From: a bacterium | Lineage (GTDB): Bacteria; Sysuimicrobiota; Sysuimicrobiia; Sysuimicrobiales; Segetimicrobiaceae | Assembly (NCBI GenBank): GCA_035945995.1 | Contig: DASYZR010000005.1 | Coordinates: 1-64,000 of the forward strand | DNA: 64,000 nucleotides | Direction: 5' to 3' | Shown here: positions 47,077 through 48,126 of the stretch, piece after piece | Layout: each line of letters opens with the position of its first letter | How positions within the stretch are numbered: the first letter of the stretch is position 1 | Program-made: the position numbers and the translations under genes | The notes under the pieces: generated by a model | Told to the model about the DNA's origin: nothing | Seen by the model: only the letters and a program-made list of their open reading frames with translations | Database searches by the model: none

Positions 47077-48126
47077 TCAGCCGAGAACGGCGATCTCCCC
47101 CCGCCCCGGTCCGGTGATCTCGCCGATCACCGCGGCCACGGGCAGGCCGCCCGCCTGCAGCGCCTGCACGAGCGTGTCGCACCGCGCTTCCGGTACCGCG
47201 ATGAGGAGGCCGCCGGAGGTCTGCGCGTCGCAGAGGAGCACTTGGGCGTCCTCGCCCACCCCGTCCCACGACACCACGTCCTGCAGCGACTCGCGGTTGC
47301 GCTGCGTGCCGCCCGGGATCGCGTGGGCGTGCACGAGCGGCCAGGCGGCGTCGATGATCGGCACGTCGCGAAGCCTGACGCGCGCGCCGACCCCGGCCCC
47401 GCGTGTCATCTCCGCCAGGTGCCCCAGCAGGCCGAACCCGGTGATATCGGTCGCGGCGGACACGCCGACCGCCATCATCACTTCCGCGGCGGGCTTGTTG
47501 AGCGCCGCCATGATCCGGATCGCCTCGCCGACCGCCTCCGGCGGGGCCTTGCCCTGCTTGAGTCCGGTCGTGAGAATGCCCATCCCGAGCGGCTTCGTCA
47601 GGACCAGCCGGTCGCCGGGGCGGGCCGCCGCGTTCGTGATGACGCGGTCGGGGTGGACAAACCCGGTCACGGCCAGCCCGTACTTCGGCTCGGGGTCGTC
47701 GATCGTGTGCCCGCCGATGATGGTCACCCCCGCTTCCGCGCACTTGTCGGCGCCGCCGCGGAGGATCTCGCCGAGCACGCTCAGGGGGAGTTTCGCGCGG
47801 GGGAAGCCCGCGAAATTCAGCGCCAGACGCGGCGTGCCGCCCATCGCGTAGACGTCGCTGAGCGCGTTCGCCGCCGCGATCATCCCGAACCAGTACGGAT
47901 CGTCGACGACCGGCGTGAAGATGTCGATCGTCTGCACGAGCGCCATCTCCGGCCCGAGGCGGTAGACGCCCGCGTCGTCGGCGGTGCTCGTGCCGACGAG
48001 GACGTTGGGGTCGGTGATCGGTGGCAGGTGGCGCAGAACCTGCGCCAGGTCGCTCGGACTCAGCTTGGACGCTCAGCCCGCGCAGGCCACCATGCTGGTG
48101 AGCCTGATCCGCTCGCGGTCGCTCAT
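47077..48126 (-). CDS. selD: selenide, water dikinase with in-frame UGA (selenocysteine)
   Basis: A 349-residue selenophosphate synthetase that makes selenophosphate from selenide and ATP for selenocysteine and selenouridine synthesis. From ATG 48126 (SD GGGAGG) the frame reads [17 protein letters not shown], then TGA at 48075-48073, then [13 protein letters not shown] and the rest of SelD. The TGA is codon 18, where SelD has its catalytic Cys or Sec (position 17 in E. coli). Downstream motifs GGHTIDD, TKPLGMGI and DITGFGLLGHL are intact. A gene call stopping at the TGA would lose the first 60 residues. The hairpin after the TGA supports selenocysteine insertion. It diverges from a LysR gene. 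Confidence 0.9.
48030..48075 (-). promoter_or_regulatory. bacterial SECIS-like hairpin downstream of the selD UGA
   Basis: After UGA 48075-48073, 26 bases on, GGCGCAG (48046-48040) pairs perfectly with CTGCGCC (48036-48030) around a GTT loop. The loop starts with G about 33 bases after the UGA, within the spacing range used for bacterial SECIS elements that recruit SelB. This is the expected place and shape. Confidence 0.65.

Follow-up and report, generated by a model that had tools for sequence, protein, structure and literature searches.

An in-frame UGA at the catalytic codon of selD and a covarying SECIS-type hairpin in the candidate phylum Sysuimicrobiota

Selenophosphate synthetases that contain selenocysteine (Sec), known as Sec-SelD or SPS2, are already well described (TIGR00476; PMC1794560, PMC4561486), and the variant in which a Cys lies three residues before the Sec (CxxU) makes up ~5.6% of marine single-domain Sec-SelDs (PMC2398784). 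Here, we examine a selD gene of an uncultured bacterium, within a stretch of 64,000 nucleotides (the window) from contig DASYZR010000005.1 of assembly GCA_035945995.1. The order to which this bacterium belongs takes in contigs published as CSP1-3 and ANGP1, e.g., LDXQ01000035.1, and the present name, which the window takes by kinship, is Sysuimicrobiota (PMC11604079).

The locus resembles the described Sec-SelD/SPS2 genes in its family, in the UGA at the catalytic site, in the coding-region hairpin just downstream, and in lying in a genome with selA, selB, and selC. It differs from them in having CxxU instead of the common UxC, and in its host, a candidate phylum. The likeness to the CxxU single-domain Sec-SelDs extends to the Cys three residues before the Sec, although what is a minority form in the marine set (PMC2398784) is the rule here, in all order members read. 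A first-pass annotation of this DNA had singled out selD as being itself a selenoprotein; this is supported, but the kind is long known and hardly surprising (PMC1794560, PMC4561486). The Sec-SelD described here belongs to a known type, and what is added is the documentation, for the Sysuimicrobiota lineage, of a Sec-decoding trait that takes in six or more selenoproteins; the main genome paper of this candidate phylum (CSP1-3) contains no word beginning "selen".

Direct translation of the minus strand from 48126 to 47077 gives one frame with a single internal TGA and no other stop before the terminal TGA; the start codon, the internal TGA, the continuity of the frame across it, and the good Shine–Dalgarno sequence had all been called correctly in the first-pass annotation (Table 1). 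When the TGA is read through, the product scores 392.8 bits on the NCBIfam profile TIGR00476 (selD; cut-off 125 bits), over positions 1-309 of the 311 in the profile and across the UGA, and it matches E. coli SelD (3u0o) with 282.6 bits. The UGA falls on Cys17 of the E. coli protein, which agrees with the earlier placement at the SelD active site; position 17 is right in E. coli numbering, but the residue is number 18 in this protein. The Sec or Cys of a SelD is followed by Lys at +3, and U18 with K21 corresponds here to C17 with K20 in E. coli. Judged by sequence, the assignment to the SelD family is beyond doubt and the region reads as a full-length selenophosphate synthetase. Automatic annotation would cut the gene by ~60 residues, catalytic residue included, as the first-pass annotation had warned and as the product of mechanical ORF calling bears out; the read-through reading corrects the gene.

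Table 1. Features of the selD locus, the Sec machinery, and the further UGA-containing genes of the same genome
Feature	Position	Strand	Basis or site
selD, selenide water dikinase (predicted), 349 residues including Sec18	47077..48126	-	TIGR00476 and E. coli SelD 3u0o matches
In-frame TGA predicted to be read as selenocysteine, codon 18	48073..48075	-	aligns with E. coli SelD Cys17; TGA in 36/36 site-covering order matches
Terminal ordinary TGA stop of selD	47079-47077	-	direct reading
selD start ATG	48126	-	direct reading
Shine–Dalgarno-like GGGAGG, 4 nt upstream of selD ATG	48131..48136	-	direct reading
Cys15 codon, giving C-A-G-U (CxxU) motif instead of usual UxC	48082..48084	-	direct reading; in all 30 order members read
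Lys21 codon, counterpart of E. coli SelD Lys20	48064..48066	-	alignment; invariant in SelD loci read
Shortened 289-aa ORF from ATG 47946, without active-site loop	47077..47946	-	mechanical ORF calling
Bacterial SECIS-type hairpin (candidate)	48029..48047	-	direct reading; relatives' pairing, synonymous constraint, RNAalifold consensus
Hairpin 5' arm TGGCGCA	48047-48041	-	
Hairpin loop GGTTC	48040-48036	-	
Hairpin 3' arm TGCGCCA	48035-48029	-	
selA	C155:5846-7204		
tRNA-Sec, anticodon TCA	C155:1953-2043		
Formate dehydrogenase alpha (FdhA)			UGA in ARVUHGPTVVSLA, known Sec site
Two AhpD/CMD-like proteins			UGA in NGCPFU and RNCGYU, known Sec sites
Prx-like protein			UGA in WUPYC, known Sec site
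TlpA-like thioredoxin-fold protein			UGA in WUPTC, known Sec site
Five selenoprotein genes together	G000:C112, C80, C116, C99, C88 (L163-L166, L130)		

The order is represented by 43 genomes, 38 of which have a SelD match. Every main-SelD match that covers the site, 36 in all (this genome and 35 relatives, at 56-100% identity), has exactly one TGA, the other matches in the order being two C-terminal fragments in which the site is not covered and one divergent second SelD without a stop. The TGA stands at the catalytic codon in all 30 order SelDs that were read directly, and SelD loci of other bacteria and phyla have UGA at the catalytic site in most cases and Cys in the remainder. Since the assembly is a draft of 181 contigs, one might suspect a sequencing or assembly error for Cys or another sense codon; because the identical TGA occurs in the SelD of 35 relatives, as well as in many other phyla, we consider this exceedingly unlikely, and the read error that the first-pass annotation had named as a possible refutation is excluded. 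The ORF of 289 aa that follows the TGA might also suggest a pseudogene with a real premature stop and a restart at ATG 47946. Such a restart product would be without the catalytic residue and Lys21, however, and the short segment before the TGA, with the catalytic motif, is conserved at the protein level. The TGA is moreover common to otherwise intact relatives down to 56% identity, and the decayed N-termini or scattered extra stops that a pseudogene predicts were not seen in these relatives, making decay a very improbable account of the gene.

Bacterial SECIS elements, e.g., those of E. coli fdhF and fdnG and the bSECISearch model, are stem-loops that lie 3' of the UGA within the CDS and have a G first in the apical loop, and the hairpin shortly downstream of the selD UGA is alike in each of these respects. 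Its stem has 7 bp, and an eighth would form if the G and C at the two edges of the loop paired; the loop starts 33 nt downstream of the UGA, near the upper limit of the range typical of bacterial SECIS elements. The top of the hairpin (GCA-loop-UGC) resembles that of E. coli fdhF, and the bulged U of the fdhF element is absent from the perfect 7-8 bp stem seen here. The SelB of this organism is predicted to bind the candidate hairpin even though this bulged U is missing. An Rfam scan of the region returned sub-threshold chance matches only.

The perfect 7-bp hairpin with a G-first loop ~33 nt downstream, to which the first-pass annotation had drawn attention, is real, but in one sequence alone it is weak evidence and barely above chance (~0.05). 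In this genome of 70% GC, an equally good stem arises in 4-6% of codon-resampled versions that keep the amino-acid sequence and the codon usage of selD. The single-sequence hairpins of the five other selenoprotein genes in the genome, which are treated below, are likewise barely significant by codon resampling and are not relied on.

Across relatives, the evidence for the hairpin is strong, and consists of synonymous constraint, pairing in excess of resampling, and compensatory changes. Among 30 order members, codons Sec+8 to Sec+14, which hold the hairpin, have the top excess synonymous identity of 227 windows of selD, and the loop codon can vary at its wobble base. RNAalifold applied to the 30 relatives gives the hairpin as the consensus fold. 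A mean of 7.4 of 8 pairs is formed in the 30 order sequences versus 5.4 in codon-resampled ones (z 10.6) and 7.1 versus 5.2 in 58 Sec-SelDs of other phyla (z 13.5), with pairing at chance level in 13 Cys-SelDs (3.3 versus 3.2, z 0.5), all three z-values being ones that ignore shared descent. Of the 45 sequences from outside the order with Ala at Sec+10, 43 have Watson-Crick pairing between the wobble base of that Ala codon and the opening base of the Sec+14 codon (GCG with Arg in 29, GCT with Ser in 6, GCC with Gly in 5, and GCA with Cys in 3); RNA pairing therefore dictates the amino acid at Sec+14 (R, S, G, or C), which makes SelD a clear example of an RNA structure setting an amino acid. 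The structure is conserved beyond coding constraint, and the SECIS-like element of the first-pass annotation is now a conserved, covarying hairpin of bacterial SECIS type.

The position of the hairpin is not the same everywhere. In some actinobacteria, another hairpin lies closer to the UGA, and in a few distant families of the order (L043-L045, in G042, G040, and G041, respectively) the hairpin at +33 is replaced by a different one, CTGGGTCC-GGA-GGACCTAG, with its loop 17 nt after the UGA. Outside the hairpin, on the 5' side of the UGA, 28 order members have Ala at Sec-4 (Ala14 here, codon 48087-48085), and every one of them uses GCC; with an excess synonymous identity of 0.65, this codon ranks near the 99th percentile for selD, and a 5' context element is a possible explanation.

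The first-pass annotation had proposed that the organism probably decodes UGA as Sec and had suggested searching the same genome for selA, selB, and selC. All were found, on a single contig (C155): SelA with 551 bits, SelB with 352 bits in a single frame and with the SelB winged-helix domains, and tRNA-Sec with 70.8 bits. The possibility that this contig is stray or mis-binned was considered and rejected; it belongs to the organism, since its GC content and tetranucleotide profile match those of the window, and the order of its genes is kept in two genomes of the genus at 77-91% DNA identity. Targeted family searches, which give a lower bound for the list of selenoproteins, revealed five more genes in the genome with an in-frame UGA at recognized Sec positions, all of known selenoprotein types (PMC2398784, PMC13188914). 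In the two AhpD-like genes, the Prx-like gene, and the TlpA-like gene, the same UGA is present in relatives, and distant TlpA homologues have Cys. The fifth encodes formate dehydrogenase; enzymes of this class have a part in the carbon-fixation argument of the phylum paper. All of the checks suggested in the first-pass annotation, the search for other UGA-containing genes among them, thus gave results in favor of Sec decoding.

Could UGA have been reassigned generally, as in codes where it specifies Trp or Gly? No support for this was found. UGA also serves as an ordinary stop, terminating 8 of the 15 ORFs inspected, selD included, as well as selA; the selA and selB frames are without internal UGA, and the in-frame UGAs that were found sit at known Sec sites. 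We regard a general reassignment as vanishingly unlikely.

Almost certainly, selD encodes a functional selenophosphate synthetase with a catalytic selenocysteine, its UGA being read as Sec through SelB and the hairpin. When the ribosome reaches the UGA, hairpin-bound SelB just downstream would deliver Sec-tRNA-Sec, and translation would run on as far as the ordinary stop codon at 47077. The resulting SelD would make selenophosphate, which SelA would use for more Sec-tRNA-Sec; as its product would feed Sec-tRNA-Sec, SelD would need its own product for its own synthesis. No TIGR03167 match (ybbB/selU, for selenouridine) was found in this genome, and the most likely use of SelD is therefore Sec synthesis alone. 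Readthrough independent of selenium, with some amino acid other than Sec inserted, has been proposed for insect SPS1-UGA (PMC4561486), and in its favor here is that a hairpin could in principle promote readthrough by itself. The whole Sec machinery is present, though, and the family residue at the site is Sec or Cys. The two relatives that apparently have neither selA nor selB carry selD near a contig end, one of them with tRNA-Sec adjoining selD. We judge such readthrough very unlikely and retain the decoding of UGA as Sec.

The active site reads CAGUAxK in all 30 order members. In a wider set of 101 SelDs (48084-48073 of the window and loci L016-L125), the extra Cys is at Sec-3 in 38, at Sec+2 in 60, at neither in 3, and at both in none. 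At least three changes on the tree are needed to explain the swap between -3 and +2, and three supported independent pairs give a sign test p of 0.5, too few for significance. Tentatively, and with more doubt than belief, we suggest that SelD has its auxiliary Cys at either Sec-3 or Sec+2 and never at both, that the two are functional substitutes, and that the order is fixed for CxxU. One role for the auxiliary Cys might be to form a selenenylsulfide with the Sec and then resolve it.

Within the order, selA was above the cut-off in 33 of the 43 genomes and tRNA-Sec above the gathering score in 36; G037-G039 reached 53-55 bits only, and their matches may represent another long-armed tRNA. Two genomes, G039 and G040, were considered as cases of an orphan UGA-containing selD without selA and selB, and were rejected as such; selD lies near contig ends in both, a contig break is probable, and in G040 tRNA-Sec and selD are 2 kb apart at the end of a contig. 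In G034, which is rated 100% complete, selA (C12:42290-43594) is split over three frames, through either indel errors or decay of the gene. One contig of G029 (C34), a genome with 6% contamination, carries extra copies of selA and tRNA-Sec beside a second, divergent SelD without UGA (45% identity); contamination or the transfer of a Sec cluster is the probable origin of this second set.
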